Origin: a virus
Virus record (IMG/VR): IMGVR_UViG_3300020001_000004
Location: 1-32,173 of that record
Strand: one strand, 5' to 3'
DNA: 32,173 bases
Part shown: positions 5,256 to 28,582 of the stretch, piece after piece
How the letters are laid out: the number at the start of each line of letters is the position of its first letter
Position numbering within the stretch: position 1 is the first letter of the stretch
Notes under the pieces: generated by a model
Seen by the model: the letters and a program-made list of their open reading frames with translations, nothing else
Told to the model about the DNA's origin: nothing
The model's database searches: none
Program-made: the position numbers and the translations under genes

Positions 5256-6236
5256 TTAAACTCCTGCCTTGATCGCTTCCGGTGATTTGCTTTTCTTCAA
5301 GCTGTTCTTTACATCATCAGCGAAATCATTCACTTGTTTGTCCTTTTCGGTTTTATCCTTTTCGGTAACTGCCCCGGTTTTAACCTCACCGGTAGAATCA
5401 CTGGCAAGTTTTTTTAACGCATCTGCGCTCATGGATTTCAATCCGAATTCTGCCATTTGCTTTGCACTCAATGGCTTGCCCGATTCGATGGCTGCCTTAA
5501 CCCCGGCAGGATCAATCTCATTGAAAACCAAACAGGCTTCAACCCGATCTTTCTCTTGTGAAACTCCTGCTAAAATCCCCAAAGCAAATATTTCATTGTA
5601 AATGTTTGGATGTTGGGCTTTCAATTCTGCAAGTGTCATGATATTGGGATTTGAATTTGAATTTTCGTTTGTTGGTTTGTATTCGGCGGCAACCTTGTAG
5701 ATCATTTCATTGAAAGCCTTCATTTCGGTAGGGTTCACTTTGGTGATCTTTTGGATAAGGCCGATCTCCTTTGCTTGCCGTGCATTAAGAAATACATTGA
5801 CTTGTTTTTTTGAATCAAACATTTCGTCAATTGTCATGCCTGCGACCTCTTTGAATTTTTCTTCATTCAATCGCATCTTCATTCTCGAACGTAAATCCTT
5901 ATTCACATTATCCAAAAACTTTTGCATTTCAACATCACCTTCGGCAACATACATATCGGCACGATGCAGGATGAATTTAGTAACGTCTAAAGATTCAGAT
6001 GATTTGGAATAAAGATTCAAATTAGCCGCCATGGATGCTGCTATCCCATCGTTCTTAATGTTTACGTTTCCATGCTCTTTTATTTTTGCTATCATCCCCC
6101 AACCGGCAAATACTGAACCACCACCACTATTCACTCGCATATCCACTTCATCATCCATCGCATCATTCAGGCGATTGATAACATCCTCTGCTGTGAAGTC
6201 ATAAATTCCGGTGTATAAAAGGATTTCCTTTGGCAT
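5256..6236 (-). CDS. ClpP-like prohead protease with C-terminal scaffold domain
   Basis: With the start at 6236 the protein has 326 residues. The N-terminal half is a ClpP-like serine protease: RVNSGGGSVFAG (34-45) forms the oxyanion region, Ser68 in GIAASMAAN is the likely nucleophile and His91 in FILHRAD the likely base. The C-terminal third is rich in Lys, Glu, Asp and Ser and looks like a scaffold. An internal ATG at 5639 (MTLAELKAQHPN) would yield a free 127-residue scaffold, as Nu3 arises within gene C of lambda. A longer frame up to 6395 exists, but it would run through the divergent promoter and operator at 6278-6316. The protease matures the prohead by cutting scaffold and itself. 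Confidence 0.85.
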   Translation of the reverse strand: MPKEILLYTGIYDFTAEDVINRLNDAMDDEVDMRVNSGGGSVFAGWGMIAKIKEHGNVNIKNDGIAASMAANLNLYSKSSESLDVTKFILHRADMYVAEGDVEMQKFLDNVNKDLRSRMKMRLNEEKFKEVAGMTIDEMFDSKKQVNVFLNARQAKEIGLIQKITKVNPTEMKAFNEMIYKVAAEYKPTNENSNSNPNIMTLAELKAQHPNIYNEIFALGILAGVSQEKDRVEACLVFNEIDPAGVKAAIESGKPLSAKQMAEFGLKSMSADALKKLASDSTGEVKTGAVTEKDKTEKDKQVNDFADDVKNSLKKSKSPEAIKAGV

Positions 6237-6277: not shown

Positions 6278-6302
6278 TTTTTCCCCTTGAAAGGGAAAAA
6301 AT
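6278..6302 (+). promoter_or_regulatory. Inverted-repeat operator, copy 1
   Basis: The element reads TTTTTCCC, CTTGAAA, GGGAAAAA, an 8-bp inverted repeat with a 7-nt centre, plus AT. The same 25 bases occur once more, on the minus strand at 20543-20567. The -33 TTG of the promoter for the regulator gene at 6321 lies inside it (6287-6289). It lies between two divergent genes, the protease and the regulator. The likely ligand is the ribbon-helix-helix protein encoded just downstream, which would make this an autoregulatory site. Binding is an inference. Confidence 0.7.
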
Positions 6303-6316
6303 AAGTCTTACATTTG
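6287..6316 (+). promoter_or_regulatory. Bacteroidota-type promoter of the regulator gene
   Basis: TTG at 6287-6289 and TACATTTG at 6309-6316 are separated by 19 bp, matching the -33/-7 pattern (TTG and TAnnTTTG) known for primary sigma factors of Bacteroidota. Only four bases separate the -7 element from the ATG at 6321, so the message should be leaderless or nearly so. The -33 element lies in the operator. Confidence 0.65.
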
Positions 6317-6320
6317 ACCT

Positions 6321-6518
6321 ATGAGTAGACCATTGAAGGGTGATCAATACCTGGATAACGAAATTAGGGTGAAAGGAATCCCCCCACAAACCCATAGCGA
6401 TTTAATAAATATCTCTCAAAATTTAGGCATTTCATTATCGGCACTACTGAAGCCAGAATTACGAAAAATAGCTGATAGCTATTCTACTGAATTAAAAAAT
6501 TCTCCTACTAAAGATTAA
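6321..6518 (+). CDS. Ribbon-helix-helix (Arc/MetJ-type) transcription regulator
   Basis: This 65-residue protein is the only recognised gene on the plus strand. The pattern NEIRVKGIPPQTHSDL (13-28), LGISLSALLKPELRKIA (35-51) fits the ribbon-helix-helix fold: a DNA-contacting beta strand at about 13-19, helix A at 22-34 and helix B at 38-52. Such proteins bind as dimers or higher forms to inverted or tandem repeats. Its promoter contains the operator at 6278-6302, and the same element lies at the tail-module promoter, so it probably regulates both itself and the tail genes. The start ATG is fixed by the promoter four bases upstream. Its end overlaps the end of the convergent portal gene by four bases. 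Whether it represses or activates cannot be read from sequence. Confidence 0.8.
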   Translation: MSRPLKGDQYLDNEIRVKGIPPQTHSDLINISQNLGISLSALLKPELRKIADSYSTELKNSPTKD

Positions 6519-8152
6519 GCGGTTGCCGGTTTTGGGGCTATTGGTGGCGCAATGGGAATGATCTTCAATTTCTTACTATTCTCCAATTCCTCCGCATACT
6601 GTTCCATATTAGAATCTGAATCTCCACCGTTCAAGGTCTCTGTCGCTGCCTCCACCGTTGTTAAAGGAAGGCTTGCCCCGGTGTCTCCTAATTTCAGCCG
6701 TTCGGCCATGACTTCCTTTAAAGGATCAATGTGAGGAACCGGCGCTCCCACCCACCGTGTATTACGATAAGCCTCCAATACCATGTAATTGTTCTGTGCC
6801 CTTGCAAGGATGTAACCTGGGGCTGTGATCTTGTTCTTGAGTATTTCAATCTCAAGCCAAAAATCGAAAATAGGTTGGTAGAATTGGGATGCAAAATCAT
6901 CACGGATCACCGATAAGGTATGTTCCCAATCCTTGAGCGCCGCCCGGCTTGCGGAAAAATTGCTATTGTATTTTGACATTGCTACCTCCGGTGGTATGCA
7001 TAGTGCCGAACATACAAGGTCAATGTTCACACCGTAAAAGTCTTTGAAATACAATTCGTTCTTGCTTTCAACCTGCTTCATTTCAGCACCATTAGGCAAG
7101 TTGTAGGTCTGCTTATTTGTTGAGGCTGCAACCCTGTCGGCCAATTGATTGCCCTCTATAGTGGTCGGTAACTGTTCATTCAATGAGGCATCCATATCAT
7201 GAGCAATTGCAAGTTGTTTGGTTAATGGACTTTCTCCCGTTCCACCTAATTCATGAACGATCTGCAAGACTATCTTTTGCCGTTCCTCTGCACTGCCCAC
7301 TGTAGCTTCCTTGTAGCGTTCAAGTTTCTTTAGGGTTTCAAGCACAACCGAAATTAATGGAATGCCCCTCACGTTATCTATCCGGTAGTCCATCCCATAA
7401 ACCAAGAATGCCATGGTCAATCCTGATTGCTCCCCCTTGCATGGAACTCTGGTTGTCTCGAAGGCCATCCCTGGTTTACGAACGTAGTAGGCGATGTGTT
7501 CATTGGATGGCGAAAGTTCAATACCGTTTACGATCCTGTTGCCATTAGCAAGGACTTGTGGGAAGAATTCATTTCCGTAAAGTGGAGATATGATATGTGA
7601 ACCATCCACTAATTGAACGTTCATCATTTCTTTTTCATATCGAAGAATCACCAAAACATCCCCACCTACTTTGGCATTTATAAATGCTTTCTTAGCAAGG
7701 TATTTCAGATTGCGCATTCCTGAATAATCTGAGGTTTTTGATTTGGTGAAAAGTTGGAACCGTGTCTCAACTGCATCACAGAACTTTTCACTATCAAGTT
7801 CTTTGATCCCTTCCGAAATTAAAACCTCATCCACCGGTTCACATTGCAATTTCAATCCTTTGCCTACAACCCACGTTGAAAATTTATTCAGAACAGTTTG
7901 AGTGATTTCACTTTCAAGATAGGATTGCCACGATCTTAACCGAAGCGCTTCATAATCGGGACTTAGTTCTTTGATAGGACCGATCTCTCCAAGATTCTTT
8001 TCCCCGTTCCAGCTTTGTGTGAACAAGGTCCGGTATTGTCCATATCCGGTGAACTGCTGTTGTGGCTGTGGTTTGGAAATTCCATTCTTTGGGGCTACAC
8101 CGTTTACCCTTCGCTTAAATAGCTTTGTAAAATCTGCCAATTCCAATGCCAT
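6515..8152 (-). CDS. Portal protein, lambda gpB type
   Basis: The 545-residue protein (start ATG at 8152) should form the 12-subunit ring at one capsid vertex, through which DNA is packaged and ejected. Recognisable parts are LRLRSWQSYLESEITQTVLN and VVGKGLKLQC in the N-terminal quarter, a central GNEFFPQVLANGNRIVNGIELS strand region (given as landmark, about 204-225 region), YGMDYRIDNVRGIPLISVVL, and YNSNFSASRAALKDWEHTL near residue 400, typical of the lambda portal family. The longer frame to 8197 would overlap the preceding gene; ATG 8152 lies 7 nt after its stop and is preferred. The gene is converging with the regulator gene at 6321. It is separated from the terminase genes by about 21 kb, which is unusual. 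Confidence 0.88.
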   Translation of the reverse strand: MALELADFTKLFKRRVNGVAPKNGISKPQPQQQFTGYGQYRTLFTQSWNGEKNLGEIGPIKELSPDYEALRLRSWQSYLESEITQTVLNKFSTWVVGKGLKLQCEPVDEVLISEGIKELDSEKFCDAVETRFQLFTKSKTSDYSGMRNLKYLAKKAFINAKVGGDVLVILRYEKEMMNVQLVDGSHIISPLYGNEFFPQVLANGNRIVNGIELSPSNEHIAYYVRKPGMAFETTRVPCKGEQSGLTMAFLVYGMDYRIDNVRGIPLISVVLETLKKLERYKEATVGSAEERQKIVLQIVHELGGTGESPLTKQLAIAHDMDASLNEQLPTTIEGNQLADRVAASTNKQTYNLPNGAEMKQVESKNELYFKDFYGVNIDLVCSALCIPPEVAMSKYNSNFSASRAALKDWEHTLSVIRDDFASQFYQPIFDFWLEIEILKNKITAPGYILARAQNNYMVLEAYRNTRWVGAPVPHIDPLKEVMAERLKLGDTGASLPLTTVEAATETLNGGDSDSNMEQYAEELENSKKLKIIPIAPPIAPKPATA

Positions 8153-8159
8153 AAAATTC

Positions 8160-8474
8160 TTATTGAAATCTTCGTGGAAAGTTTTTACCGTCAACAAGTC
8201 TTACCATTCTGCCGTTCAGTCTGTTGATATACATTTGCCTTATCCCCTCCCAATACCTCATGGCGGTAGCAATCCCCACCCCTCCTTTATAGATCGTTTT
8301 TATTATGGTTTGACCATCGTTTAATGAATATTCTTGAATTGAATCATTTATGGCCATCGTTTCCCCAGAAAGAATAAGGGCATCTATTACCTTATCAATT
8401 GCAGTGATCTTGTCCTGCAAGGTCTTTTGGGATTGGATGTAAAGGCCACAACTGGAAAAAATAATCTGTCCCAT
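8160..8474 (-). CDS. Small gpW-like head-tail joining protein (candidate)
   Basis: This 104-residue protein lies directly upstream of the portal gene. It has a helix with QDKITAIDKVIDALILSG, a short strand pair around SIQEYSLNDGQTIIKTIY, and a second helix with YWEGIRQMYINRLNGR. Helix, beta hairpin with a 'Y-S-L-N-D-G' turn, helix is the arrangement of the gpW family, which plugs the portal and joins head to tail; lambda W also lies just before the portal gene B. The start ATG at 8474 comes four bases after a TACATTTG promoter element. Sequence similarity to gpW is weak by eye, so the call rests on shape and position. Confidence 0.5.
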   Translation of the reverse strand: MGQIIFSSCGLYIQSQKTLQDKITAIDKVIDALILSGETMAINDSIQEYSLNDGQTIIKTIYKGGVGIATAMRYWEGIRQMYINRLNGRMVRLVDGKNFPRRFQ

Positions 8475-16107: not shown

Positions 16108-17964
16108 TTATTTATTCCAAGCCTCATGTGTTGAAGTCCTGTTTATTTTAATCCAAGCACTGTCCGCCTCCGCCTCTACTCTTCCCTTCGGATCATTAAT
16201 GAATAATCTCACATTCGCATCCTGTTTTGCCATTCTATAAATAAATTCAGTCTGCGCAGTTTGTGGATTCAATGCTTGTTTTGCAATATCTTCTTCTTCT
16301 TTAGATTGCTGTCCAAACATTGGCCTTGGTTTCCCTTGTTCATCATATATAGCATTCAATACCATTTTTTGTCTAAATTTTTCAATCCCCGCGACGGCCT
16401 TATCTACCCATTCAAATCCGGTAAGTTTTGAAATAATCTCTAGAACGGTCTGAAGTGGACCAAGAACATAATCCAGAATGACCACGCCTAATCCCCTGAA
16501 GAAATTTTCTACTTTAGTGTCCCATCCAGACGAAATCATTCTTTTTTCCCAATCGGAATAGATTTTACTTGCAGCCATTACCGCACCGATAAAAGCCGTT
16601 ATGGCTATGATAATTATACCAATAGGATTGGCTGCAAGCGCAGTATTCCATAACCATGTTGCCGCTGTCACAACTTTCATCCACACAGCATAAATCCCAG
16701 CAACAATATTCCAAGAAATGATAATCGCTTTCAGGGTAATCAGTGCAACTGCCACCCATTTTAAAACATTTAACCAAAATAATAATGTCTTAGCGTTGGC
16801 TTGAGTGCCCTTATCCATTGAATTGAACTCCTGAGTTGCTATCTCATTACCGTTCACCAAAAGTAAAACGCCCCGTAAGGTCTGATTCAATCTTTTAAGA
16901 AAATGTGAATAAGCCCCCGTGCCATCATCAATGGAAAGTATCAATCCCTGATAGGCCGCTTTTAAAAGCGTGACTGATCCGATATAAGTATCCAGCCTCT
17001 TCGATGCAATAATATTTGTATATCCGGATTGAACTTGTTGTAGAACTAATGTTTCGGCTTCTACTTGTTTTAAATTTCTAACCAATATCTGTGCGGATAC
17101 CGCAGTCCTCCTACCGAATTTATTAAATGCCGGAGTAAGTGTATCTACATGTTTGGCAATATTTTCAAGAACCTGGCTATAGGTATGTCCCTTACGTCTA
17201 CTGTCAATAAAAATGTTTCTCAATGATGTAGCACTCATGTGCGCATCAATTCCAGCATTGGCCAATGCTCCCAATAATGCCACTGTTCGCTCAAAGGAAA
17301 TACCTACAGCATTCGCCGCTCCTGCCACAATAGGCAACGAAGTCTCCAGTTTAGTAAAACTCAACGCCGTATCGTTTGATCCTTTTGCAAGCACATCCAT
17401 AATGTGTTGGGTGTCACTCCCATCCGTTCTAAAGTTTTGAAATGATCTTGTCATTGCTCCCGCCAATAATGCGGTTCGATCAAGAGCAGCATCCAGGGCA
17501 ATTGACCCTGATACAATAGCTGCGGACATATTTAAGATTTGTGGTAATTCGAATCCAAGTCGAGCTAATTCGATTTGAAGCCCTACTACTTCTGTGGCTG
17601 TCTTGGCGGTGGTAAGACCCAACATTTTTGCTTGATCTGATAGGGCTTTATTTTTCTCAACGGTAGAACCCATGATGGCTGCAAGGTTTGCATTGGCTTG
17701 TTCAAACTGCGAGAATATATCAATTAAATTCCCAACCAATCGAAAGAGTAAATAGCCGCCTATATAAACTCCAAATCCACGAAGCATATTATTGATAGTA
17801 GTCAATGGGGACATGAGGGATCGGAATCCACGTTCGGCCCTGGCCAATCCTATTTCTGCCTTTCCTGCAAAGCCATGAAGATTCCTGGACATTTTACCAA
17901 TGACTCCTGACATTTTATCTACAGCGGTAAAAATCGTGGGTATTGTAAATTGTCTTCCGGCCAT
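16108..17964 (-). CDS. Tail tape measure protein
   Basis: This 618-residue protein sets tail length and is ejected with DNA. It has an N-terminal helical part with repeated small residues (MSRNLHGFAGKAEIGLARAE), a TP901-type core with LGLTTAKTATEVVGLQIELA and AGAANAVGISFERTVALLGA (about 204-223), and a hydrophobic block of two to three membrane-type segments at about 390-465 (for example AANPIGIIIIAITAFIGAVM). The size would correspond to a tail roughly 90 nm long if the usual ratio of about 0.15 nm per residue holds. It begins 1 nt after the -1 frame of the tail chaperone ends, the usual arrangement. Confidence 0.88.
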   Translation of the reverse strand: MAGRQFTIPTIFTAVDKMSGVIGKMSRNLHGFAGKAEIGLARAERGFRSLMSPLTTINNMLRGFGVYIGGYLLFRLVGNLIDIFSQFEQANANLAAIMGSTVEKNKALSDQAKMLGLTTAKTATEVVGLQIELARLGFELPQILNMSAAIVSGSIALDAALDRTALLAGAMTRSFQNFRTDGSDTQHIMDVLAKGSNDTALSFTKLETSLPIVAGAANAVGISFERTVALLGALANAGIDAHMSATSLRNIFIDSRRKGHTYSQVLENIAKHVDTLTPAFNKFGRRTAVSAQILVRNLKQVEAETLVLQQVQSGYTNIIASKRLDTYIGSVTLLKAAYQGLILSIDDGTGAYSHFLKRLNQTLRGVLLLVNGNEIATQEFNSMDKGTQANAKTLLFWLNVLKWVAVALITLKAIIISWNIVAGIYAVWMKVVTAATWLWNTALAANPIGIIIIAITAFIGAVMAASKIYSDWEKRMISSGWDTKVENFFRGLGVVILDYVLGPLQTVLEIISKLTGFEWVDKAVAGIEKFRQKMVLNAIYDEQGKPRPMFGQQSKEEEDIAKQALNPQTAQTEFIYRMAKQDANVRLFINDPKGRVEAEADSAWIKINRTSTHEAWNK

Positions 17965-18541: not shown

Positions 18542-18955
18542 CTACCCTGATATTTTTTTGAGTAAGCCACTGCCAGAAAGTTTTAATTTAATGGTAGCTG
18601 AGTTTGCATTCAATTGAATGTCTCCTACTGGACTTCCAACTCCTTTATAAACCGTTCCGTTGATGTGAGAGACGGTCCATGTTGCATCAACCGGATCCCC
18701 CGACATGGCATTAAGTTTTTCCAGGTCTAATCTTGAATTCATATCCCCGGCGATGGTGCATTCCAAGGACCAACGATTACGATTCAATTTCTTGATAATC
18801 TGCCCTGCGCCATCGATCATATTTGAATCGTCCTCATTACGGAATCCGCCTGGATCATACGTACTATCCTCATTGGCTTTCGGGAAAAGAACGCCCTGCC
18901 CCAACGTTGGATGGTTGAATGTGAGTTCGATAATATCCCCGCCTACAGATGGCAT
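18542..18955 (-). CDS. Tail tube protein
   Basis: This 137-residue beta-rich protein follows the sheath gene. Landmarks are VGGDIIELTFNHPTLGQGVL at the N terminus, a loop with YDPGGFRNEDDSNMIDGAGQ (33-52), the LNRNRWSLECTIAGDM strand and the final strand NSATIKLKLSGSG. A small protein with this arrangement directly after the sheath is the inner tube of a contractile tail (Mu gpM, T4 gp19 role). It begins 11 nt after the sheath stop and is followed by the chaperone gene after 1 nt. Confidence 0.75.
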   Translation of the reverse strand: MPSVGGDIIELTFNHPTLGQGVLFPKANEDSTYDPGGFRNEDDSNMIDGAGQIIKKLNRNRWSLECTIAGDMNSRLDLEKLNAMSGDPVDATWTVSHINGTVYKGVGSPVGDIQLNANSATIKLKLSGSGLLKKISG

Positions 18956-18966
18956 ATTCTTTTATT

Positions 18967-20493
18967 TTAAAGTGTCCCGAAATTAAATCCAGCCTGTGCT
19001 GTTGTGCTGGCAATCCGTACAAATCCACTTCTTTTATATCGGAAGAAAGTTTCTAATCTATCCGGATTGACTGTACTGATTGCAACTGTAATGCTGGCTT
19101 GCATGAATGAGGCCTGAACAATCAATTGACGAGCCGATAGATCATCCGCATAAGCGTCAAGGATTGATTTCCACATTTTCGGCTTCACCACATTTTGTGC
19201 CGTAACAATATCTGCATCATTGGCTATGGAGTGATTTTCTACATTGATTGCTTCAAGTAGATGATACCCAAACTTTACATTCCAATCAATGTTTAAATTA
19301 CGGCAATAGCGGAATTGAGGTGGATTTTCTCCAAGAGGGTGATATGTTGTTACGAAATCTTCAACCTTATATAACCCGGTTGTCAAATTAACAGTGGAAC
19401 ATCCTTTCTTAACAAATGCATCCCGATTGTTGTAGGTAGCCATACTACCAATTTGCAATGTTGCTGGCACTGGCATATCAGGATAGAATGATCCGGCCAC
19501 GTCCAAATTGGGATTGTTTTGTGCTTGCAGACTAAACAGATAGGCCATATTAGCGGCTGCTTCGAAGGTGAATCCTGCACTCGCAGGTGCTGGGGCCAAA
19601 GCAATCGTGACGTTGAGAGATCGCGCGTCTGTAATTGCTGAAGGATCATCGACTATAGAGCCGGTAATGGCAATCAATGGCTTCATAATGATCCCTGCAT
19701 ATCTTCCCGTAGGATTGATTGGATCCGGAATACCATTAAAGGCTTCAAGAGTGGCCATCGTATTTGAATCCGTTGAATACCCATTGATCACAATTGTATT
19801 CCAATCTCCACCGAATAAAGCAAGAGCCGCAGCAATGCTGGGCGTTCCACTTCCGGACGCGGTGGTTACAATCGAATAACTCATGCCCAATGAATTACCT
19901 CCATTGTCCATTGTGATAATCAACTCATTTGAGGTAAGTCCTTTCCACTTGGAAGTAAAGATTGCTTCATACCCGGCATTATAACCAATGACAGGGGCAC
20001 CCACGGCTGCATTAACTGCATCTTGCATTTTTTGTGCAATGGTGGAGGATGTATCGGTAGTAACAATATTGATTGCATAAGAAACACCATCCATATTTTC
20101 ACGCCCGGCAATATTCAAATAATGTGTTCCGTTTGCGTTGGGTGTACCAATGGCAGTAACCGTGATCTGTTTTGCTGTAGCCCCCGGAGCGGCAGCTTGT
20201 GGATAAACAACTGTGGGAATCCCTCCTACTCCATCCCCGGCAAGAGGTGGGCGAAGGATACGCATGATGTGATAAATTGGTGAGCCGTATCCATAAAGGA
20301 CTCCGGCTTGTTGTGCGCTTGTTACTGCAACTGGATTAAGTGAAAGAGTAGATTGATTGGCATCATTTGCCTCGGCTAATATTGCAATTCTTTGAGGAAG
20401 ATTTGGGGTTACCTGGCTAAAATTACCTTTCGTGATTTTGTACCCTACAATTCTGGATATGCGGTCGAGGGTTACTGCGTCAGATAATGCCAT
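18967..20493 (-). CDS. Contractile tail sheath protein, Mu gpL-like
   Basis: This 508-residue protein forms the contractile sheath. The N terminus has the strand ISRIVGYKITKGNFSQVTPN (about 12-31), followed by RIAILAEAN, and the YGYGSPIYHIMRILRP segment (about 67-82) that is typical of Mu gpL-like sheaths. Later landmarks are ALFGGDWNTIVINGYS (about 226-241), FSLQAQNNPNLDVAGSFYPD and FRYCRNLNIDWNVKFGYHLL (about 399-418), and the C-terminal strand SGFVRIASTTAQAGF. It is the first gene of the tail module and has its own promoter and operator about 35-75 bp upstream. Its start lies 16 bases after a small hairpin in the leader. Confidence 0.88.
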   Translation of the reverse strand: MALSDAVTLDRISRIVGYKITKGNFSQVTPNLPQRIAILAEANDANQSTLSLNPVAVTSAQQAGVLYGYGSPIYHIMRILRPPLAGDGVGGIPTVVYPQAAAPGATAKQITVTAIGTPNANGTHYLNIAGRENMDGVSYAINIVTTDTSSTIAQKMQDAVNAAVGAPVIGYNAGYEAIFTSKWKGLTSNELIITMDNGGNSLGMSYSIVTTASGSGTPSIAAALALFGGDWNTIVINGYSTDSNTMATLEAFNGIPDPINPTGRYAGIIMKPLIAITGSIVDDPSAITDARSLNVTIALAPAPASAGFTFEAAANMAYLFSLQAQNNPNLDVAGSFYPDMPVPATLQIGSMATYNNRDAFVKKGCSTVNLTTGLYKVEDFVTTYHPLGENPPQFRYCRNLNIDWNVKFGYHLLEAINVENHSIANDADIVTAQNVVKPKMWKSILDAYADDLSARQLIVQASFMQASITVAISTVNPDRLETFFRYKRSGFVRIASTTAQAGFNFGTL

Positions 20494-20527: not shown

Positions 20528-20558
20528 CAAAGTCAATTTTTAATTTTTTCCCTTTCAA
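20528..20558 (-). promoter_or_regulatory. Promoter of the tail module
   Basis: On the minus strand TTG (20558-20556) lies 20 bp before TGACTTTG (20535-20528), close to the TTG / TAnnTTTG pattern of Bacteroidota; only the second base of the -7 element differs. The -33 element is within the inverted-repeat operator, as at the regulator promoter. The leader to the sheath ATG at 20493 would be about 30 nt. Confidence 0.55.
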
Positions 20559-20567
20559 GGGGAAAAA
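20543..20567 (-). promoter_or_regulatory. Inverted-repeat operator, copy 2
   Basis: The 25 bases are identical to those at 6278-6302 but on the minus strand. The flanks differ, so this is not a larger duplication. The stop codon of the last glycosyltransferase gene (TGA at 20557-20555) and the codons before it lie inside the element, so it serves both as coding end and as regulatory site. It is probably bound by the ribbon-helix-helix protein encoded at 6321-6518. Confidence 0.7.
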
Positions 20568-21331
20568 AGACTCGATAATCCAAACAAGTCTGGCACTATC
20601 TTAATTTTCTGTCCTCCCATATCTTTGATTATAAAGCCTTCTGGATTGGCTTCCAGTTCGGGAGAATTGTAATCTGATAATAGTCCTTGTAATTTATTAC
20701 CATGTTGACCGGCACTCGAATTACGAATTTTACGTTCAATATCTTTTCGAACCCAAGAATAATGGTGCATGGGCTGACTTAATCTAACCACATCGGATTC
20801 ATTGATTACTCGCGTAGGATCGCAATAATAAGGGTAGGTTGATCGGCCTGCTTTAGTGTCACTGCGTAATTCATGAATGAATGGGACAAAGTATCCATCA
20901 ATTTCTTCTAGCCTCCACACAGGACGTTTAAAGTATGTATAAATTGGGCAAACTGATCCGGAGTAGCCTGCTTGAACATATTCCTCTTTAAGCGCACAAA
21001 AATTCTCATAATATTCATCACAATCAACATGAAGAAAATGTGAACATTTGTGTTCCCTCGCAATGTCCAATCCAATGTTTCTTTTTCGAACTTCATTTAT
21101 TGTTCCTCCTAATTCGAAATTGGGTTTATATTCTGCTAAGATTATTTTATTGGGTTCATTAAATCCTGATGGATCAAAATCCATTAACGGATTATATCTC
21201 TCTCCAAAGTTTGAAACTTTCTGAAATATTATTATCACCAAATCAACATGCTCGATCATGCTATTGATTGATCCAGGCAATAATTCCATACTGTCCCATG
21301 CGTTGTAAATTGCAGCTAATCGCGTTTCCAT
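20555..21331 (-). CDS. Glycosyltransferase, GT-A fold, GT2/GT92-like
   Basis: The 258-residue protein begins with a variant nucleotide-binding strand and has HFLHVDCDEYY at about 98-108, where Asp103 and Asp105 form the DxD metal and nucleotide-sugar site. EVRKRNIGLDIAREHKCSHF (80-99) is the helix typical of GT2-like enzymes just before DxD. A PMHHYSWVRKDIERKI motif follows near residue 190. No membrane segment is seen, so it acts in the cytosol. It is the last gene of the cassette, and its stop lies in the tail operator. Donor and acceptor are unknown. Confidence 0.75.
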   Translation of the reverse strand: METRLAAIYNAWDSMELLPGSINSMIEHVDLVIIIFQKVSNFGERYNPLMDFDPSGFNEPNKIILAEYKPNFELGGTINEVRKRNIGLDIAREHKCSHFLHVDCDEYYENFCALKEEYVQAGYSGSVCPIYTYFKRPVWRLEEIDGYFVPFIHELRSDTKAGRSTYPYYCDPTRVINESDVVRLSQPMHHYSWVRKDIERKIRNSSAGQHGNKLQGLLSDYNSPELEANPEGFIIKDMGGQKIKIVPDLFGLSSLFSP

Positions 21332-21337
21332 ATAAAC

Positions 21338-22063
21338 CTATAAATGTACCAATGCGTTGTTTACCATTTCAGAATAAACGCTCGGTGTCATTGTGCCTTT
21401 GATGTCATCTGTGGATAGTCCGAACAGTGTCTTGCCTCTTTGTAGAAAATTGTTTCTTCCTTCTTCAAACCATGCGTCTGACCGTTCGTAAATTTTATCC
21501 TTAACACCACCATCGGAGTAATGGTTGTGCTTGAACTTCATTGGAGATACCGTATTCCTATTTACCAGTTCAGCAACAAGTGTCATTTCGGTATCACACC
21601 AGGCATGTTTGTAAGATGGGTGATAAACATACCCGAAACGATTGAAGTAAACCCAATCCATTATTGGTAATGTGATCACCCAATCCTGAATCCCATCATC
21701 TGTTTTTAATATCCAATCAATTTTACCGTCCATTATAATTTGGAGGCTCTTTGCCCACCCTTCAGGACATTCAAAGTCATCTGAAATGACGATAAGAAAA
21801 TCCCCAGGCTCTCCCCGGTATTTAGAATACCACTGAGCCACGACATTGATCGCGTCAATGGCCGACCTATTTGGATGGATGAAGGTTGAAAAGTTAAGTG
21901 TTGGGAACTTATTTGAATAGTTCCATAATTCAGGATCGTCACCGTCAAGGCTTAGGATGTATTCGATTTCAGTTTCAGGAACCCCTGAGTTTGCAATCCA
22001 TTTCCTACCCGTCTCAAGAGCAAGCTGTGGCCTTCCCCTGCTCGGATGAATTACAGTAACCAT
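21338..22063 (-). CDS. Glycosyltransferase, GT2-like; paralogue of the one at 26862-27575
   Basis: The 241-residue protein has SRGRP (8-12), VISDDFECPEGW (92-103) as the acidic metal site and the phrase GYVYHPSYKHAWCDTE (144-159). The same three motifs in the same order occur in the enzyme at 26862-27575 (SRGRP, MSDDMLFVLEGW, GYIYHPSYKSFSCDAE), so the two are paralogues. The start overlaps the preceding methyltransferase by 13 nt, exactly as the paralogue overlaps its own upstream gene. The cytosolic GT-A fold is likely; substrates are unknown. Confidence 0.75.
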   Translation of the reverse strand: MVTVIHPSRGRPQLALETGRKWIANSGVPETEIEYILSLDGDDPELWNYSNKFPTLNFSTFIHPNRSAIDAINVVAQWYSKYRGEPGDFLIVISDDFECPEGWAKSLQIIMDGKIDWILKTDDGIQDWVITLPIMDWVYFNRFGYVYHPSYKHAWCDTEMTLVAELVNRNTVSPMKFKHNHYSDGGVKDKIYERSDAWFEEGRNNFLQRGKTLFGLSTDDIKGTMTPSVYSEMVNNALVHL

Positions 22064-22542
22064 AAATCAGGATTAATAAAGTTTGAAACCGACGTAGCCC
22101 ACGCTCCATCACTTGCCCAATCTATCATGTATTTGTATTTGGTAAGCTGAGGCCTCATTTGATAGCCGTGTTCCGCCGCAGGTTCGGTATCATGTGCCAC
22201 GACAACTTTTGCATGATGCAATAGTCCTAAACTTATTTTACGGTGTTCCCCAGGCGCTTCATCGACTAAGGCAACCCCCCATTCCTTTCGCCATGGAATG
22301 TTATCCCAATTTTCAACATGGGTACTTCCATATTTATCGGCCCATTCTTTATTGGAATCGTAGGTGAAAAACTCAAGCCCTTCATCTTTGCAATATTGGC
22401 GAAGGTATTCAGTCGATCCAATCCCACATCCAAGTTCAAGGACCGGGAGTTTAAATTGCTTTGTCGCTTCGAGTGCGGCCCAAAGTAGGTAGCGATGATT
22501 CGACCAATTACCAACTACCGCTAGGAATTCCTCTTTTTTCAT
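22051..22542 (-). CDS. SAM-dependent methyltransferase, class I
   Basis: The 163-residue protein has the motif I sequence PVLELGCGIGSTEYL (33-47), the glycine-rich loop that binds S-adenosylmethionine, and an acidic end of strand 2 (FFTYDSNKEW). Another strand, WGVALVDEAPGEHR, would be motif IV. It is shorter than most of the family and appears to consist of the Rossmann core only. In this cassette it may methylate a sugar or a peptide. It overlaps the preceding gene by ATGA. Confidence 0.72.
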   Translation of the reverse strand: MKKEEFLAVVGNWSNHRYLLWAALEATKQFKLPVLELGCGIGSTEYLRQYCKDEGLEFFTYDSNKEWADKYGSTHVENWDNIPWRKEWGVALVDEAPGEHRKISLGLLHHAKVVVAHDTEPAAEHGYQMRPQLTKYKYMIDWASDGAWATSVSNFINPDLWLL

Positions 22543-23021
22543 AATAAATTTTTCACAAGTGCCATACGCCCGAAGGCATTGATTTCATTCTTGCCTGTTA
22601 ACGGAAGATTGTTCGTAAGCAATAATAATTCGTTCTTACTAATCATGTATCTGAATTCTTCAAATATTTCGAATGGCTCGCCTTTCGCTTTCTTTGCCTG
22701 AAGTGCATTCAAAAATGTATGAGGATTAATCCCCCAATCAATATTACCTATTCGAATGATGTTAAAGTTTTCAAAAAATTGCTGCACTAACGTCTCCATC
22801 CTTTTCTTGTGTTCAATGTATGGCGACCATGAATAATATCTTGAAATGGTGCTGAAATAAAATAGGCATTTGTCTCTTGGTTGCGCTAATAAGATTTTAC
22901 TCTCTTTTGCGAATTGATATTCATCCCGGCAAGAACTATTCGAAACACCAGAAGCAAAGAAGATTGCTCCCTTCCTATCTTTCAATGCTTTTGCAATGTC
23001 TCCGTTTCCTATTATTGCCAT
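22539..23021 (-). CDS. Compact NAD-dependent epimerase/reductase-like protein (SDR type)
   Basis: With the start at 23021 the protein has 160 residues. AIIGNGDIAKAL (2-13) is a Rossmann glycine motif, and YFSTISRYYSWSPYIEHKKR contains Ser57/Thr58 and Tyr68-x3-Lys72, the catalytic YxxxK pattern. IIRIGNIDWGINPHTFLNAL follows as in dTDP-sugar epimerases and reductases. At 160 residues it is half as long as the usual extended SDR enzyme and lacks most of the substrate domain, so it may be a reduced enzyme or use a partner. A longer frame to 23048 overlaps the upstream gene by more and lacks support. Confidence 0.6.
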   Translation of the reverse strand: MAIIGNGDIAKALKDRKGAIFFASGVSNSSCRDEYQFAKESKILLAQPRDKCLFYFSTISRYYSWSPYIEHKKRMETLVQQFFENFNIIRIGNIDWGINPHTFLNALQAKKAKGEPFEIFEEFRYMISKNELLLLTNNLPLTGKNEINAFGRMALVKNLL

Positions 23022-23569
23022 TTCGGTAAGATAAAAAGTGAGTCCCAATAATTGAATCCTGCACCATGGCGTGTTTCGTAATAATGTTGAGTGAATTTAT
23101 AGCCCAATGCTCTGAGTTTGTTTTCCATCATGTTCATTTCAAAAAGTTTGTAAATGCCAGTATGAAGATGAAATTCAATTGAAAGCTGTCTAGCCGGGGG
23201 CTTCTCAAGGGTCATAATGATCTCATATTCGCTTCCCTCGACATCCATTTTTATTAAATCCCACAATCCTTTGATTGTTTTTTCGCTATAGCTAGCGATT
23301 GTGTATGACCGGACTTCATTGCCAAGCTTGATTCTTGTTGCTTGAGGATCGGCATTTTTCTCAACTCCAACCCATCCTGTTTCTCCGGTGATCGCACAGC
23401 GATCATAATTTTCTTCCTGCCCAAGAAACAAATCAATGTCTACCGGATAAACGTTGTGGCCCAATTCCCGCATTTTGTCCGTGAACCCGAAACCACGGCA
23501 TCCAATATCAAGAATGTTTGCCCTCTCTGGAAGTAAGTCAAGGTCCACCGAATGTTCTGCTATTATCAT
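23012..23569 (-). CDS. FkbM-family methyltransferase
   Basis: Starting at ATG 23569, which overlaps the preceding stop by ATGA, the protein has 185 residues; a longer frame up to 23611 would overlap by 46 nt. The SAM-binding motif is NILDIGCRGFGFTDKM (18-33), and LIKMDVEGSEYEIIM (105-119) is the hallmark of the FkbM family. These enzymes methylate oxygen atoms of sugars and other small molecules. It is probably one of the sugar-decorating enzymes of the cassette. Confidence 0.75.
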   Translation of the reverse strand: MIIAEHSVDLDLLPERANILDIGCRGFGFTDKMRELGHNVYPVDIDLFLGQEENYDRCAITGETGWVGVEKNADPQATRIKLGNEVRSYTIASYSEKTIKGLWDLIKMDVEGSEYEIIMTLEKPPARQLSIEFHLHTGIYKLFEMNMMENKLRALGYKFTQHYYETRHGAGFNYWDSLFILPKWQ

Positions 23570-24222
23570 TTGAAATGTTTTTTGATAAACATTGGATTGT
23601 CTTGTATGCAATATCGTACCTGATATGCTCCCTGTGGTTCAATGCCGTGCATATACATTGCAAGCGCCATACAGGTTTCATCATTGCGATGGCCATTGAT
23701 CTGTTCGGTTGTTGCCTCTTTTTGACTACCGAACAATCCTTCCTGTTCGGCTTCCATCCATTGTTGGAAAACTCTCAATGGTTTTGTTCTTGTGAAATCA
23801 AAATAATAAAGACTCCCACCAACCAAATGCCAACCATAGCGCTCAATCATTTCGCCTGTCAAGCCATAATAAGCAAGACATTTATTCGATACCAAGGGGC
23901 TATCTCCTGTCTTGTGAAGTTTGTTGTCATCCTTCACCGCCACTATTGGAAATTGAAATAGGTCATCTATTTTGTCTGCCAAGACCATTGCAGGATCAAG
24001 AAAAATAACCTTCGGGAATCCTGCCTCCACTGCTGCTAAAATTGCATGTGGTTTAAATCCATAAAGTGATTCATAGAAGTTTCGCGCTCCTGGTGGAAGT
24101 TCTTCCGTCCAAAACATAATGTTTGCTTCGGGATAAATTTTTTCAATAGATTGTCTCAGCCTGCGCTGCTGCTGAACATAGATTTCGCCGAAGGCATAAG
24201 AAACAAAGCAAACGTCTTTCAT
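23566..24222 (-). CDS. Glycosyltransferase-like protein, GT8-like
   Basis: The 218-residue protein begins DVCFVSYAFGEIYVQQQRRL, and has KVIFLDPAMVL at 71-81, where a GT8-type DxD site would be; here the second Asp is replaced by Ala (Asp76-Pro-Ala). LVGGSLYYFDF (about 133-143) and HRNDETCMALAMY (about 179-191) match the later GT-A motifs seen in cassette neighbours and in GT8 enzymes. The incomplete DxD suggests altered metal use or loss of activity. Overlaps with both neighbours are of the ATGA kind. Confidence 0.62.
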   Translation of the reverse strand: MKDVCFVSYAFGEIYVQQQRRLRQSIEKIYPEANIMFWTEELPPGARNFYESLYGFKPHAILAAVEAGFPKVIFLDPAMVLADKIDDLFQFPIVAVKDDNKLHKTGDSPLVSNKCLAYYGLTGEMIERYGWHLVGGSLYYFDFTRTKPLRVFQQWMEAEQEGLFGSQKEATTEQINGHRNDETCMALAMYMHGIEPQGAYQVRYCIQDNPMFIKKHFK

Positions 24223-24314
24223 TTATTTAGCATTTTTTTAATTTTTCTTTCCTGCCACCATGCTAAAAACAAACCCAATAGAAATGGTAAATATTGAAAA
24301 ATTAATTCCTTCAT
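24219..24314 (-). CDS. 31-residue single-pass membrane protein
   Basis: The frame from ATG 24314 to TGA 24219 codes for 31 residues: a hydrophobic segment IFQYLPFLLGLFLAWW (5-20) and a basic tail QERKIKKMLNK. It overlaps both the upstream and the downstream gene by ATGA and thus fills an otherwise empty gap of 88 bp exactly. Both overlaps and the topology (N-out, basic C-in) make it credible despite its size. No family is recognised. It may anchor the soluble enzymes of the cassette to the membrane. Confidence 0.65.
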   Translation of the reverse strand: MKELIFQYLPFLLGLFLAWWQERKIKKMLNK

Positions 24315-25105
24315 TTATTCAGGAGTTTATAAAACTCATAAGCATAATCTGCGAACCACCCAAAATTATCCGGCCATATCCCATGCAATAATTGCATTGT
24401 CTTGCCCATGTTCTCTGGAAGCCACCCTTGCCTTAACAAGTGAGCATCAATTAATTCAGGATGGTGTAAGGTCCATGCTGACCGGTCAACCCTGCCTACT
24501 GGATAGCCATTAGGAAGAATCCCCCGATTTACAATTAATTTTCCTGATACACCATTCAATTTTTCTGTGATCAAATCCTGATCCACTACCCACCGTTTTA
24601 CCTGATCTTCGCTTTGCGCATTTGGTAAAGTCTCAAGATCACGTTTAATAAGACTATTGTAATCCTTGGTTCCTATCTTCATTAACATCTGCCAATCAGT
24701 CCGGTGCATCCCGATATAGCAAATTGGATAGTGTTGAAAGCCGGTAAGATCATGACCCCAAATAGTTATTCTATTTTTGTTTGGCTCCCAATAATCTGAA
24801 AGAGGCAGCATGTCTATATCGCTAGTCATTAAGTAATCTCCACCATCGGCAACACATGCACCATAAAGCCTTGATACTTGAGCAATAGTGTCGGACCGGT
24901 AGCCTTCTATTTCATTTAATGGATAAGGCCACATCTTTTCCAGTTCTGGATGATCCATCACGAACTCAAAAATACCTTCGTATTTCGCTCCCTCAACGAA
25001 CAAAAGTGGTTCCCACCCGAACTTTCGCCATGCCCATATTATCAGTGGCACGTAAAATAAATATTCTGGATTCTGATTTACCGAAAGGACTATTCGCTTA
25101 TTCAT
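24311..25105 (-). CDS. Glycosyltransferase, GT-A fold
   Basis: The 264-residue protein has GDYLMTSDIDMLPLSDYW (89-106) with the DxD pair Asp96 and Asp98, the metal-sugar-nucleotide site. The N terminus RIVLSVNQNPEYLFYVPLII is a strand and helix typical of such folds, and ENMGKTMQLLHGIWPDNFGW lies near the C terminus. No membrane segment occurs. Start and stop overlap neighbours by ATGA. Family within the GT-A enzymes is uncertain. Confidence 0.7.
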   Translation of the reverse strand: MNKRIVLSVNQNPEYLFYVPLIIWAWRKFGWEPLLFVEGAKYEGIFEFVMDHPELEKMWPYPLNEIEGYRSDTIAQVSRLYGACVADGGDYLMTSDIDMLPLSDYWEPNKNRITIWGHDLTGFQHYPICYIGMHRTDWQMLMKIGTKDYNSLIKRDLETLPNAQSEDQVKRWVVDQDLITEKLNGVSGKLIVNRGILPNGYPVGRVDRSAWTLHHPELIDAHLLRQGWLPENMGKTMQLLHGIWPDNFGWFADYAYEFYKLLNK

Positions 25106-25872
25106 AGATTCCAGTAAAACAAATTTTTATATTCTTTTTCTATTATATCAAACTTCCACTGATATAAATCAAAGCGCTTAAAAAACCTGATCATTTCCAG
25201 TTCAACCACACCAGGACTACCTACGTGTCTACATGTCAGATTGCTTTCCCAAAATCTCCTATCAACTTGTGGTAAACTCATTATCGGTAATTTACTCACA
25301 TCCTTTGAAAGCAGGAGATCATCTTTAATTTTTGGAAGTATTTTTTGATTCAAAAGGTGTTGATCTGATCCTCGCTGTGAAAGATCGAATCCTGCCACCA
25401 TTTCCTCCCAAGAATTCCAGCCCATAATGGCCTTTAATCGCGCTGTGTCGAACCCCACCATTCCACCCATCAAACCACCATGGGCGGGATTATCGTGCAT
25501 GGCATGGAACGGGGCACCGGTTTCCAGCCAATCCTGTACCACCTGTGCTTCGTTGTAGGTTGTTATCGCATCAGCATCTCGGCAAAGGACATGGGAAATG
25601 TCGATTGTCCAGATCGGCTTCATGCGCCAGAGCATGCCTTCACAAAGCAATGGAGTTGCTTCATTAATGTGAAGATCAAGGGTGTTATTCTCTACAAGCC
25701 AATCAAAAAGTTTCTGGTAATCGGTATAAATTTTCCGGTCAATTTCTAAATGAGTGCGAAAATCTGGATATATGAAAAAATTCATTCTGCTGTTCCAGTA
25801 AAAAGTTCGAATGTAGGCCATCATTTCAAAGTGATATGCGCCACTGAAAAGACTGTAAGAAATAACTTTCAT
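25102..25872 (-). CDS. Glycosyltransferase-like protein, GT-A fold
   Basis: The 256-residue protein contains ISHVLCRDADAITTYNE (92-108), with Asp99 and Asp101 as DxD, and PFHAMHDNPAHGGLMGGMVG (121-140), a His/Gly-rich acceptor-site loop. The sequence RGSDQHLLNQKILPKI (about 166-181) resembles the catalytic base region of related enzymes. It lies among glycosyltransferases and overlaps the membrane protein gene at 25869 by ATGA, which may point to functional pairing. Substrates are unknown. Confidence 0.68.
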   Translation of the reverse strand: MKVISYSLFSGAYHFEMMAYIRTFYWNSRMNFFIYPDFRTHLEIDRKIYTDYQKLFDWLVENNTLDLHINEATPLLCEGMLWRMKPIWTIDISHVLCRDADAITTYNEAQVVQDWLETGAPFHAMHDNPAHGGLMGGMVGFDTARLKAIMGWNSWEEMVAGFDLSQRGSDQHLLNQKILPKIKDDLLLSKDVSKLPIMSLPQVDRRFWESNLTCRHVGSPGVVELEMIRFFKRFDLYQWKFDIIEKEYKNLFYWNL

Positions 25873-26123
25873 TTTATAGATTTTAATGAATCAATCTGAT
25901 CTTGCATTATTTCCATTTGATCAATTATATCCAAATACATATTGCCAATTCTTTTCCTAGTATTGGCTCCGACCTGTGTTTCATTCATTATTACTTTAGC
26001 TTCAATTCTGAGTCTGTGAAATCTTTTCTTTGTCTCTAGCCTTTCTAAATTAATCCAAAACAGGATATAGACACAACAAATCAACACAACAATAATTCCA
26101 TTAACAATTTCTTGCTTTTTCAT
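25869..26123 (-). CDS. 84-residue membrane protein with cytosolic coiled coil
   Basis: The protein has one strong membrane segment, IVNGIIVVLICCVYILFWI (6-24), followed by a charged, helical C-terminal part with LERLETKKRFHRLRIEAKVI and MYLDIIDQMEIMQDQIDSLK, which looks like a coiled coil. It overlaps both neighbouring glycosyltransferase genes by ATGA. It resembles no known family that I recognise. The layout suits a membrane tether or an oligomerising scaffold for cassette enzymes. Confidence 0.7.
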   Translation of the reverse strand: MKKQEIVNGIIVVLICCVYILFWINLERLETKKRFHRLRIEAKVIMNETQVGANTRKRIGNMYLDIIDQMEIMQDQIDSLKSIK

Positions 26124-26713
26124 AATGCGTGTTTTGGTTGGCCGTTGAAGTAATGGTAAATGATCTCAGGAATTGGATACATCGTTTTGAAAATCCCCGC
26201 ATCACGCATGGCTTCAGATTGCTTTCCATCCTCACCGAAATTCTGGTCAGGGAAAGGAATGTCTTTCACTAAGGATAGCTTTTGAAAGTTCAAGTGATTG
26301 ATTTGTCGATAATAAAACTGGTTATCCTGCCACCATTCTATTTTTCCGGTCGCTGGATTAACGCAATCAATGAAATGATGGAATGGATTTCCTTTCTTGC
26401 CGCTGAAGTATATTTGACCCCACAATTCTCCGCAATCCATTCCGCTATTGGCTACATCAAGACCTCTTTGAATGTAGGTGTCCCCTAATAGGTCGTCATC
26501 ATCAATAAAGGAAATATATTCAGCTTCACTTCTAACTGCCGCCAAAACAAGTTCGTTTCTTTTTTGTCCTATAGTTTTTTGACGTTCATCTTCGTTGAAA
26601 ATAATTTTAATGCTATCGCTCGGCAGGATTTGCCGTTCAAGTTCCTTTTGCAAGCGATTCCTTAATTGAATTCGTTCTTCGAGTGTTGGAATGAGAATGG
26701 CTAGTTTTATCAT
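26120..26713 (-). CDS. Glycosyltransferase family 2
   Basis: The 197-residue protein starts LAILIPTLEERIQLRNRL, the first strand and helix of GT2 enzymes, and has YISFIDDDDLLGDTYI at 66-81 with the acidic metal site (Asp71-Asp74). NFGEDGKQSEAM at about 158-169 holds the likely catalytic ED base. FHHFIDCVNP lies between these. It is small but complete for a minimal GT2 fold. ATGA overlaps join it to the small membrane genes on both sides. Confidence 0.82.
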   Translation of the reverse strand: MIKLAILIPTLEERIQLRNRLQKELERQILPSDSIKIIFNEDERQKTIGQKRNELVLAAVRSEAEYISFIDDDDLLGDTYIQRGLDVANSGMDCGELWGQIYFSGKKGNPFHHFIDCVNPATGKIEWWQDNQFYYRQINHLNFQKLSLVKDIPFPDQNFGEDGKQSEAMRDAGIFKTMYPIPEIIYHYFNGQPKHAL

Positions 26714-26865
26714 TTTAGATCATTACTGATTGTCATGAATAAAATAGCGAACCCCAATGTGTGAATACTTCCCATCATGTCGCCCATTAACATTTGAACG
26801 AACTGACCAACCATCGCACCTATGGCACAATATTTCGCGGCAATTCTGTAATTGTGTCTTGTCAT
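26710..26865 (-). CDS. 51-residue membrane protein
   Basis: The frame from ATG 26865 to TGA 26710 codes for MTRHNYRIAAKYCAIGAMVG followed by a Met-rich loop (MLMGDMMG) and a second hydrophobic segment LGFAILFMTISN. It fills the 148-bp gap between two glycosyltransferase genes exactly, with ATGA overlaps on both sides. Two weak membrane segments or one hairpin are likely. No family is recognised. It is the third very small membrane protein of the cassette. Confidence 0.65.
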   Translation of the reverse strand: MTRHNYRIAAKYCAIGAMVGQFVQMLMGDMMGSIHTLGFAILFMTISNDLK

Positions 26866-27575
26866 TTTCCTAAATGTTGAGCGAATGGAATTGGCGTGTC
26901 TGGTCCGTGGGATTCATCGAAATACCGGTTAAGACGCTCCCAATAATTTTTTGTATCGGCTTCAGTAGCTAAAGCATTTCTTCGATAGGTGTCATCATTC
27001 GGAACTGGTCTGTTGGCAGGATGTTGGTGAACAAACAGTTCGTCATCGAAATAATGGTGCCTCCCGCGCATGATGGCAACATAGTATGCTTCAGCGTCAC
27101 AAGAAAATGATTTATAGGAAGGATGATAAATGTAGCCGTCACGCTTGTAGTAATCCCTGCCCATGATGCTCATTGTCGCCAAGGCATCTTTGGCATAGCC
27201 ATCATTGAAGTGGGCAAAGAAGTCAAAGGAATAACCCCAAATGTCCCTGATCCTTCGCTCCATCATCCGATCCCAACCCTCCAGAACGAAAAGCATGTCG
27301 TCACTCATGTTCACAAGAATGTCCCATTCTCCGGCTTGATCCATATCCCGGTTGATCGCATCAATCTTGCTTTCAGAATGTCCATAAACTATAAATGTAT
27401 TTCGTGAACAATCAACAAATGCTTTGATCTCAGGATTATTCATTGAATGATCATCAAGATCGGCAGTAACTAAAATTTCGAAGTTTTGGGTCTTAATTGT
27501 GACCAAAATATTCTCAACGGCCTTCTTAAACCAAAGTGGCCGACCTCTCGAAGCGAATTTGATCAGGAAGCGCAT
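26862..27575 (-). CDS. Glycosyltransferase, GT2-like; paralogue of the one at 21338-22063
   Basis: The 237-residue protein has FASRGRPLWFKKA (7-19), LVNMSDDMLFVLEGWDRM (87-104) with the acidic pair Asp92/Asp93, and GYIYHPSYKSFSCDAE (147-162). These motifs recur in the enzyme at 21338-22063, in the same order and with similar spacing. Its start overlaps the HNH endonuclease gene by 13 nt. A soluble GT-A enzyme is likely; substrate unknown. The pair may use different donors or act on successive residues of one glycan. Confidence 0.75.
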   Translation of the reverse strand: MRFLIKFASRGRPLWFKKAVENILVTIKTQNFEILVTADLDDHSMNNPEIKAFVDCSRNTFIVYGHSESKIDAINRDMDQAGEWDILVNMSDDMLFVLEGWDRMMERRIRDIWGYSFDFFAHFNDGYAKDALATMSIMGRDYYKRDGYIYHPSYKSFSCDAEAYYVAIMRGRHHYFDDELFVHQHPANRPVPNDDTYRRNALATEADTKNYWERLNRYFDESHGPDTPIPFAQHLGK

Positions 27576-28078
27576 ATTTTATTGAGATTAGCAAATTCCG
27601 CATGAAGTTCTGTGGCTCTTTGATTATAGGCAATAGCGGCTTCAACCTCTGTTTCAAATATCCCTATATAAATCTTTTTGCCATTATTGCCAGCGGAAGC
27701 CTCCCATTTTTTGTTTTTTTTATGCCATGAAACACCCAAATATGCTGAAGTCTTTCCTTTTGCTGGTCTTTGATTGCTGCAATTTTGCGAAGTATTGCAT
27801 TTTCTCAAATTATTTTTTTGATTGTTAAGCGTGTCATGATCCTCATGATCTATTAATATTTTGGGATCATTGATGTTCATTATCAATCGGCTCATTCTGA
27901 CCATAATGGTTTTATACTTCCCGTTAATTTTTCCAACGTAATTACCACGTACAGCATAATAATTATCCCGCTTTTTTAAAGGATACCATTTGAATTGATT
28001 CAAATACTCAAAATCTTCATCATCTACTTTTGTAAAAAATTGCCCATACTTACTTATAGATAATTTTATTTCTTTCAT
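27563..28078 (-). CDS. HNH endonuclease with AP2 domain (homing type)
   Basis: The 171-residue protein has a DNA-binding N-terminal part, then ILIDHEDHDTLNNQKNNLRK (74-93) with His78, Asn85 and Asn90 of the HNH nuclease site, and an AP2/ERF-like DNA-binding domain at about 112-167, including SAYLGVSWHKKNKKWEASAG. This combination is typical of free-standing homing endonucleases of phages. It is not related to sugar chemistry and probably invaded the cassette. It overlaps the upstream gene by ATGA and the downstream glycosyltransferase by 13 nt, so it left the coupling chain intact. Confidence 0.82.
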   Translation of the reverse strand: MKEIKLSISKYGQFFTKVDDEDFEYLNQFKWYPLKKRDNYYAVRGNYVGKINGKYKTIMVRMSRLIMNINDPKILIDHEDHDTLNNQKNNLRKCNTSQNCSNQRPAKGKTSAYLGVSWHKKNKKWEASAGNNGKKIYIGIFETEVEAAIAYNQRATELHAEFANLNKICAS

Positions 28079-28581
28079 AGTGGTTTATAAAAAACGGCTG
28101 TAGTCCATTGTGAATGATTCGGTTGTTTAAAAAGCTGTTTCTTCCATCCCTCTAATAATATTTCCGTTCTACTGACCATTTCCGGTGTAAAATCCTCACC
28201 TAACCAATTGTCAATAATCAAAAATCCTCCTCTTTTCAAGAAATTAATGCAATAGTTCAGGCATTTTTCCCGATAGTCGCCGTCAATAACAACACAATCA
28301 TATTCATGTCCATCATTAATGGCTGTGACATAGGTTGTTTCTGTTTTGGCCAACCATGCCCCGGCAGCCGTTGCCCAATTGTCATCCCCATCGACATTTT
28401 TCAAGAAAGCGCTATTAACCCTCCACCAAATTGAAGAATAACCACCGCCATATTCAAAAACATGCCATTGACTCACATCCATAGTCTTTAACCATTGCAA
28501 TGTGGGTAGGGTGTACCATGGCATCACCAGTTTTGTTTCCGTGTCGATGTAGGCCCATCCAAGGTTTGCTTCCTGTATCAT
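28075..28581 (-). CDS. SAM-dependent methyltransferase-like protein
   Basis: The 168-residue protein has HVFEYGGGYSSIWW (40-53), a motif I variant with GGGYSS, DCVVIDGDYREKCLNYCINF (95-114), which holds motif IV, and RGGFLIIDNW (117-126), the motif VI strand. These fit class I methyltransferases, near the group that acts on small polar substrates (Methyltransf_24 type). It is soluble. In the cassette a sugar methylation role is likely. Its stop overlaps the HNH gene by ATGA and its start lies 1 nt after the preceding gene. Confidence 0.62.
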   Translation of the reverse strand: MIQEANLGWAYIDTETKLVMPWYTLPTLQWLKTMDVSQWHVFEYGGGYSSIWWRVNSAFLKNVDGDDNWATAAGAWLAKTETTYVTAINDGHEYDCVVIDGDYREKCLNYCINFLKRGGFLIIDNWLGEDFTPEMVSRTEILLEGWKKQLFKQPNHSQWTTAVFYKPL

Positions 28582-28582
28582 T

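Follow-up and report, generated by a model that had tools for sequence, protein, structure and literature searches.

An identical 25-bp inverted repeat occupies two distant promoters in the DNA of an uncultured, contractile-tailed Bacteroidota phage, one in front of the gene for a 65-residue ribbon–helix–helix (RHH) protein and the other upstream of the tail-sheath gene. We consider the repeat to be, very probably, the operator of the adjacent RHH protein. A more specific form of this proposal, in which the protein is an autoregulated repressor with the tail operon as its main second target, is one that we favour with moderate confidence. Judged from the DNA, the regulator appears to control both itself and the distant tail genes, and protein and switches seem to co-evolve. 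Throughout, the window denotes the whole stretch of DNA analysed, a linear 32,173-base IMG/VR contig, and copy counts refer to that contig.

A 25-bp inverted repeat at two promoters

The 25-mer, TTTTTCCCCTTGAAAGGGAAAAAAT, is present in two exact copies, R and S (Table 1), each of which contains the dyad TTTTTCCC-N7-GGGAAAAA (8-N7-8). A sequence-only reading of this DNA had described the pair as identical, distant and on opposite strands, with flanks unlike each other, and all of this was borne out. No further copy was found elsewhere in the window with up to three mismatches allowed; the chance expectation for the pair, taken as the mean number of matches in shuffled sequence, was 0, and R and S were the sole pair listed among perfect inverted repeat pairs of this length in the window. 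A looser dyad, TTTCCC-N7-GGGAAA with up to two mismatches, likewise matched only these copies in the window. Many scattered copies, the pattern which the same reading had named as speaking against its proposal, were looked for, and the window holds just the two promoter copies. Copy S overlaps the stop codon of the gene upstream of the sheath. An exact search of IMG/VR with the 20-base core of the 25-mer returned no record besides the window's own, a result that we attribute to turnover of the operator sequence between phages. The dyad was also considered as a transcription terminator and rejected, since on either strand the stem has T before it and A after it and consequently lacks a 3′ T-tract.

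Both copies lie on promoters of the Bacteroidota primary-sigma type, for which the published consensus is TTTG/TANNTTTG (PMC6847099). The elements of this type, a −33 TTG and a −7 TAnnTTTG separated by about 19–21 bp, are present at R and, with one mismatch, at S. The dyad is centred on the TTG at both copies, in keeping with the earlier claim that the inverted repeat covers the −33 element of such a promoter. With the −7 element numbered as in PMC6847099, placing its G at −5, transcription of the RHH gene is predicted to start on the A of its own ATG (6321), which would make the message leaderless, and the sheath transcript is predicted to begin with a leader of about 30 nt ahead of its ATG (20493).

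Table 1. Positions of the operator copies, promoter elements and genes discussed (window coordinates unless a locus is named)
Feature	Position	Strand	Remarks
ClpP-like head maturation protease	5256..6236	−	PF00574, E=4e-12; divergent from RHH gene
Operator copy R	6278..6302	+	25-bp dyad centred on −33 TTG (6287-6289) of RHH promoter
−7 element TACATTTG	6309..6316	+	RHH promoter; 6/6 to TAnnTTTG; 19 bp from TTG (N19)
RHH regulator gene	6321..6518	+	65 aa; antisense, between portal and protease genes
Portal protein	6515..8197	−	PF05136, E=2e-34; convergent with RHH gene
Tail tape measure protein	16108..17964	−	
Tail tube protein	18542..18955	−	PHROG 4699, E=3e-39
Tail sheath	18967..20493	−	PHROG 165, E=4e-75; first gene of putative regulated tail operon
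−7 element TGACTTTG	20528..20535	−	Putative tail-operon promoter; 5/6 to TAnnTTTG; 20 bp from TTG (N20)
Operator copy S	20543..20567	−	Same 25-mer, upstream of tail-sheath gene; centred on −33 TTG (20558-20556)
Glycosyltransferase-/methyltransferase-like gene cassette	20555..29254	−	Terminase-to-sheath interval; labels by sequence inspection, some family-tested
Third operator copies	L174:9529-9553; L178:1844-1868; L147/L148:9517-9561		Before g8474-portal genes

Besides the tail genes listed in Table 1, the window phage encodes a gpA-type terminase, capsid E and baseplate proteins. Its genes run tail-first, from terminase and cassette through sheath, tube, tape measure and baseplate to portal, protease and capsid. 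The cassette is absent, co-directional or divergent among relatives, suggesting an exchangeable cargo slot; in the window it includes an AP2-domain protein (27563-28078; PF00847, E=1e-6, below cut-off) that is possibly homing-endonuclease-like. A scan of genome contigs with the sheath, for a prophage or host, yielded no confirmed relative.

The antisense ribbon–helix–helix gene

The earlier description of the RHH gene as the lone plus-strand gene holds, as no other plausible plus-strand gene was found in the window. That its product adopts the RHH fold is well supported, if not proven. A profile built from 15 RHH members matched the VapB antitoxin at E=3e-4, its best natural match, and gave weaker matches to ORF56, AvtR and some designed proteins. 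An AlphaFold2 model of the monomer (pLDDT 78) comprises an extended segment and helices at residues 22–35 and 39–53, and RHH proteins (ORF56, CopG, VapB and Arc) make up nearly all of its top Foldseek matches, none of which is below E=0.1. Profile, model and Foldseek all point to the RHH (MetJ/Arc/CopG) fold, a DNA-reading N-terminal strand and two helices in about 45–50 residues, and uphold the class to which the protein had been assigned. No Pfam model passed its cut-off against the window protein; the best Pfam score, obtained with the RHH protein of a relative, was to RHH_5 (E=6e-4, 20 bits against a cut-off of 26). The DNA-reading strand residues of the window protein are E.R.K (NEIRVKGIP). 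Tandem RHH-like domains in a single frame, reminiscent of AvtR, are encoded by the RHH genes of G014, G018, G019, G035, G058 and G069. Searched against a collection of cultured phages, the window protein found no match and the 39-bp RHH promoter just weak, chance-level ones.

A small antisense gene occupies the same place between portal and protease in all of the first six relatives. Wider counts were drawn from 80 portal loci found with a portal alignment. The antisense RHH gene is present at this place in 47 of 53 dereplicated tail-first contigs and missing from 6, as against none of the four head-first contigs in the same set (Fisher p=5e-4); nor does it occur in further head-first IMG/VR contigs (G024, G026, G028, G029, G033 and G034) or in the phage FCV-1. 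The portal–protease gap in the tail-first contigs lacking the gene is 54–71 bp, indicating true absence of the gene at this position, and none was found elsewhere in those records. The regulator is tied to the rearranged, tail-before-head gene order. Two RHH-bearing contigs (L199 and L200) have a different order, with a divergent glycosyltransferase gene upstream of g8474-portal.

Matched sites and dyad geometry in related phages

We used the RHH promoter region of each RHH-bearing phage as a query and scored its ungapped match to each 200-bp window elsewhere in the available sequence, which comprised whole records for 13 phages and, for the others, the loci with portal and sheath. In 20 of 24 phages, the site upstream of the sheath was the best match to the phage's own RHH promoter; some of these records are mutual relatives (G019/G035 and G022/G036), so that the independent cases are somewhat fewer. 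Within these 20 phages R-versus-S scores ranged from 15 to 90, whereas between phages they were mostly 9–16, which is background, except among close relatives. The shared sites differ from phage to phage, as illustrated by TTTGTCCCTTTTGGCGGGAATATTT (G003), ATTCCCCTCGGCGGGGAAT (G016), AGTCCCAAACTTTGGGACT (G067) and TTCCGTTGATAACGGAA (G052); as 5-N7-5 dyads, the operator reads GTCCC-N7-GGGAA in G003 and TTCCA-N7-TGGAA in G004. A pair that is identical inside a genome, with a sequence that turns over between genomes, is what would be expected of a regulator of changing specificity with two targets. The proposal of a circuit linking regulator, own promoter and tail promoter, made originally from the window, is thus strongly supported by matched pairs of other sequences in many phages.

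Not every phage conforms. Matches are weak in G014, G022 and G036, and G064 has an RHH gene and no clear match. G057 (L145) retains matched sites, with a 35-bp match between its portal–protease gap and the region upstream of the sheath, yet no RHH gene is detectable in its 39.5-kb record; a recent loss of the gene or an undetected distant regulator could account for this misfit. Another tail-first locus with no detectable RHH gene, L153, keeps a dyad in its portal–protease gap. G004 (L006:11847 region, L010:1409 region) has two different dyads, TTGTCTA..TAGACAA and TTCCATTTCAAATGGAA, each of which is common to the RHH and sheath promoters.

Perfect 5-N7-5 dyads were found in 19 of 46 non-redundant RHH promoter regions, compared with 2.0 in mononucleotide shuffles. 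Spacers of 3, 5 and 9 are enriched as well and even spacers are at background, a pattern as would be produced by dyads nested around a single central base. In promoters with a full −7 box, the centre of the dyad lies 13–27 bp upstream of it, that is, in the −33/spacer region, the exception being L006/L007, where a second dyad lies at 39 bp. We also compared the exposed strand residues with the operator bases. When the third exposed residue is K or R, the operator has C/G at ±4 in 7 of 11 cases, as against 0 of 8 for other residues (one-sided Fisher p=0.0065, phylogeny ignored). The table behind this comparison combines the automatic dyads with the window and G016 and was assembled once part of the set had already revealed the pattern; given this, the disregard of phylogeny and exceptions such as G014, we treat the link between residue and base as supporting evidence.

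Regulatory readings and related systems

We infer binding of the RHH protein, repression rather than activation, and an influence on the timing of tail genes. RHH dimers, which in this fold insert a two-stranded sheet into the major groove, would bind the half-sites TTCCC/GGGAA over the −33 element of their own and the tail-sheath promoters, and the bound protein would block RNA polymerase at both. It would in this way keep its own level low and delay the tail operon. Late transcripts made from the other strand would traverse the antisense RHH gene and may help to shut it off.

The position of the operator bears directly on the sign of regulation. In the window it is centred on the −33 TTG at both promoters, the classical position for blocking. 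In several divergent-cassette relatives where the sheath −7 box can be named, however, copy S lies about 35–40 bp upstream of that box, next to the −33 element, a position that is activator-like and unlike simple blocking of the sheath promoter in those phages. The same operators could then serve a late-gene switch in which the protein represses itself and activates the tail promoter, and a precedent exists in the RHH protein AmrZ, which both activates and represses (PMC3325190); we judge such a switch unlikely. The identity of the second target can be weighed in a similar manner. The upstream neighbour of S is a divergent cassette in many relatives, where the copy near the sheath also sits on the leftward promoter of the cassette; in most of these phages it points the same way as the RHH promoter. 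G007 and G065 even carry the entire RHH promoter, −7 box included, copied as that leftward promoter, so the cassette is probably a target there too, and the tail operon may not be the sole target in divergent-cassette relatives. It is distinctly unlikely, in our estimation, that the variable glycosyltransferase cassette is the main second target and that proximity to the sheath simply follows from the cassette promoter: the window cassette, like those of G003 and G063, runs the same way as the sheath and leaves no leftward gene to control, and among the phages with the terminase directly upstream of S (G014, G016, G064, G066 and G069) the site is kept in G016, G066 and G069 and, weakly, in G014. 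The sheath is the constant downstream neighbour whatever adjoins upstream, which identifies its promoter as the constant partner. The regulon can also reach the head operon, as a few relatives (G066, L178 and G058) have a third operator copy before the g8474-portal genes. The third copy in G058 is an 11-bp direct repeat (ACGAGTACCTA), present at the other two sites as well.

Two further explanations dispense with regulation by the RHH protein. In most relatives the copies are direct repeats, some of them 69–90 bp long, as after recent copying, and they might be scars of recombination or duplication around the sheath-to-portal block. This is very unlikely given that the copies match inside phages and differ between them, that the dyads sit on promoters beside the gene for a DNA-binding protein, that the shared sequence shrinks to the dyad in many phages, the window included, and that G014, G016 and the window carry their copies in inverted orientation. 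The promoters at the two sites belong to the same sigma type, and a repeat arising by chance or purely from an AT-rich promoter context might be imagined; its probability is negligible, as the expectation is 0, the promoter consensus accounts for the TTG alone, and a check for recurrence observed matched pairs with other sequences in other phages. The repressor reading with the tail operon as main second target remains the one that we prefer.

A broader interpretation, which we offer tentatively as possible rather than probable, is that the operator pair has been selected to diversify between co-infecting phages, much as in immunity groups, with the reading strand switching together with both operators. 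Such diversification might come about partly when the second site receives a copy of the entire RHH promoter. If this were true, the repressor of one phage would not silence the tail genes of another. Sequence by itself suffices to read the two-site circuit, and about two dozen natural variants, whose protein and operator have changed together, are suited to testing how RHH strand residues read DNA. They also offer small repressor/operator pairs, apparently orthogonal, for use in Bacteroidota. As far as our searches of the open-access literature showed, late-gene regulation in contractile-tailed Bacteroidota phages is undescribed, and no description of an RHH protein regulating the tail genes of Bacteroidota phages was found there.

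The closest cultured relatives by portal are the Flavobacterium phages FCV-1 and FL-1 (Ficleduovirus; 39%), and the FCV-1 sheath is 51% identical. FCV-1 is head-first and lacks the antisense gene between portal and protease, whereas the window phage is tail-first and has it. Among characterized regulators, Arc and Mnt of the temperate phage P22 are small RHH repressors with short dyad operators overlapping promoters, and both work in its immunity region. Foldseek returned Arc among its matches to the model of the window protein, and no sequence similarity of Arc or Mnt to the RHH profile was detected in the profile search. The RHH antitoxins VapB, MazE6 and RelB have the fold in common with the phage protein, and MazE6 is autoregulated through an 18-bp operator on its promoter (PMC9477884). 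Unlike these, the phage gene has no toxin gene beside it, its neighbours being portal and protease, and it does not classify as a type II antitoxin.

SvtR, from the archaeal virus SIRV1, is a small RHH autorepressor that acts at its own promoter. It also binds a tail-fibre gene promoter and has been proposed to prevent premature expression of that structural gene (PMC5569661). It was absent (2kel) from the matches of the RHH profile up to E=10, which gives no sign of sequence kinship. SvtR acts in an archaeal host on TATA/BRE promoters, with four known sites, whereas the promoters of the window phage are of the Bacteroidota type; neither a co-diverging operator pair nor an antisense location between head genes is known for it. 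SvtR is the nearest working analogue of the window circuit, in which matched sites lie at the regulator's own promoter and at that of a structural gene, and binding to them is predicted.
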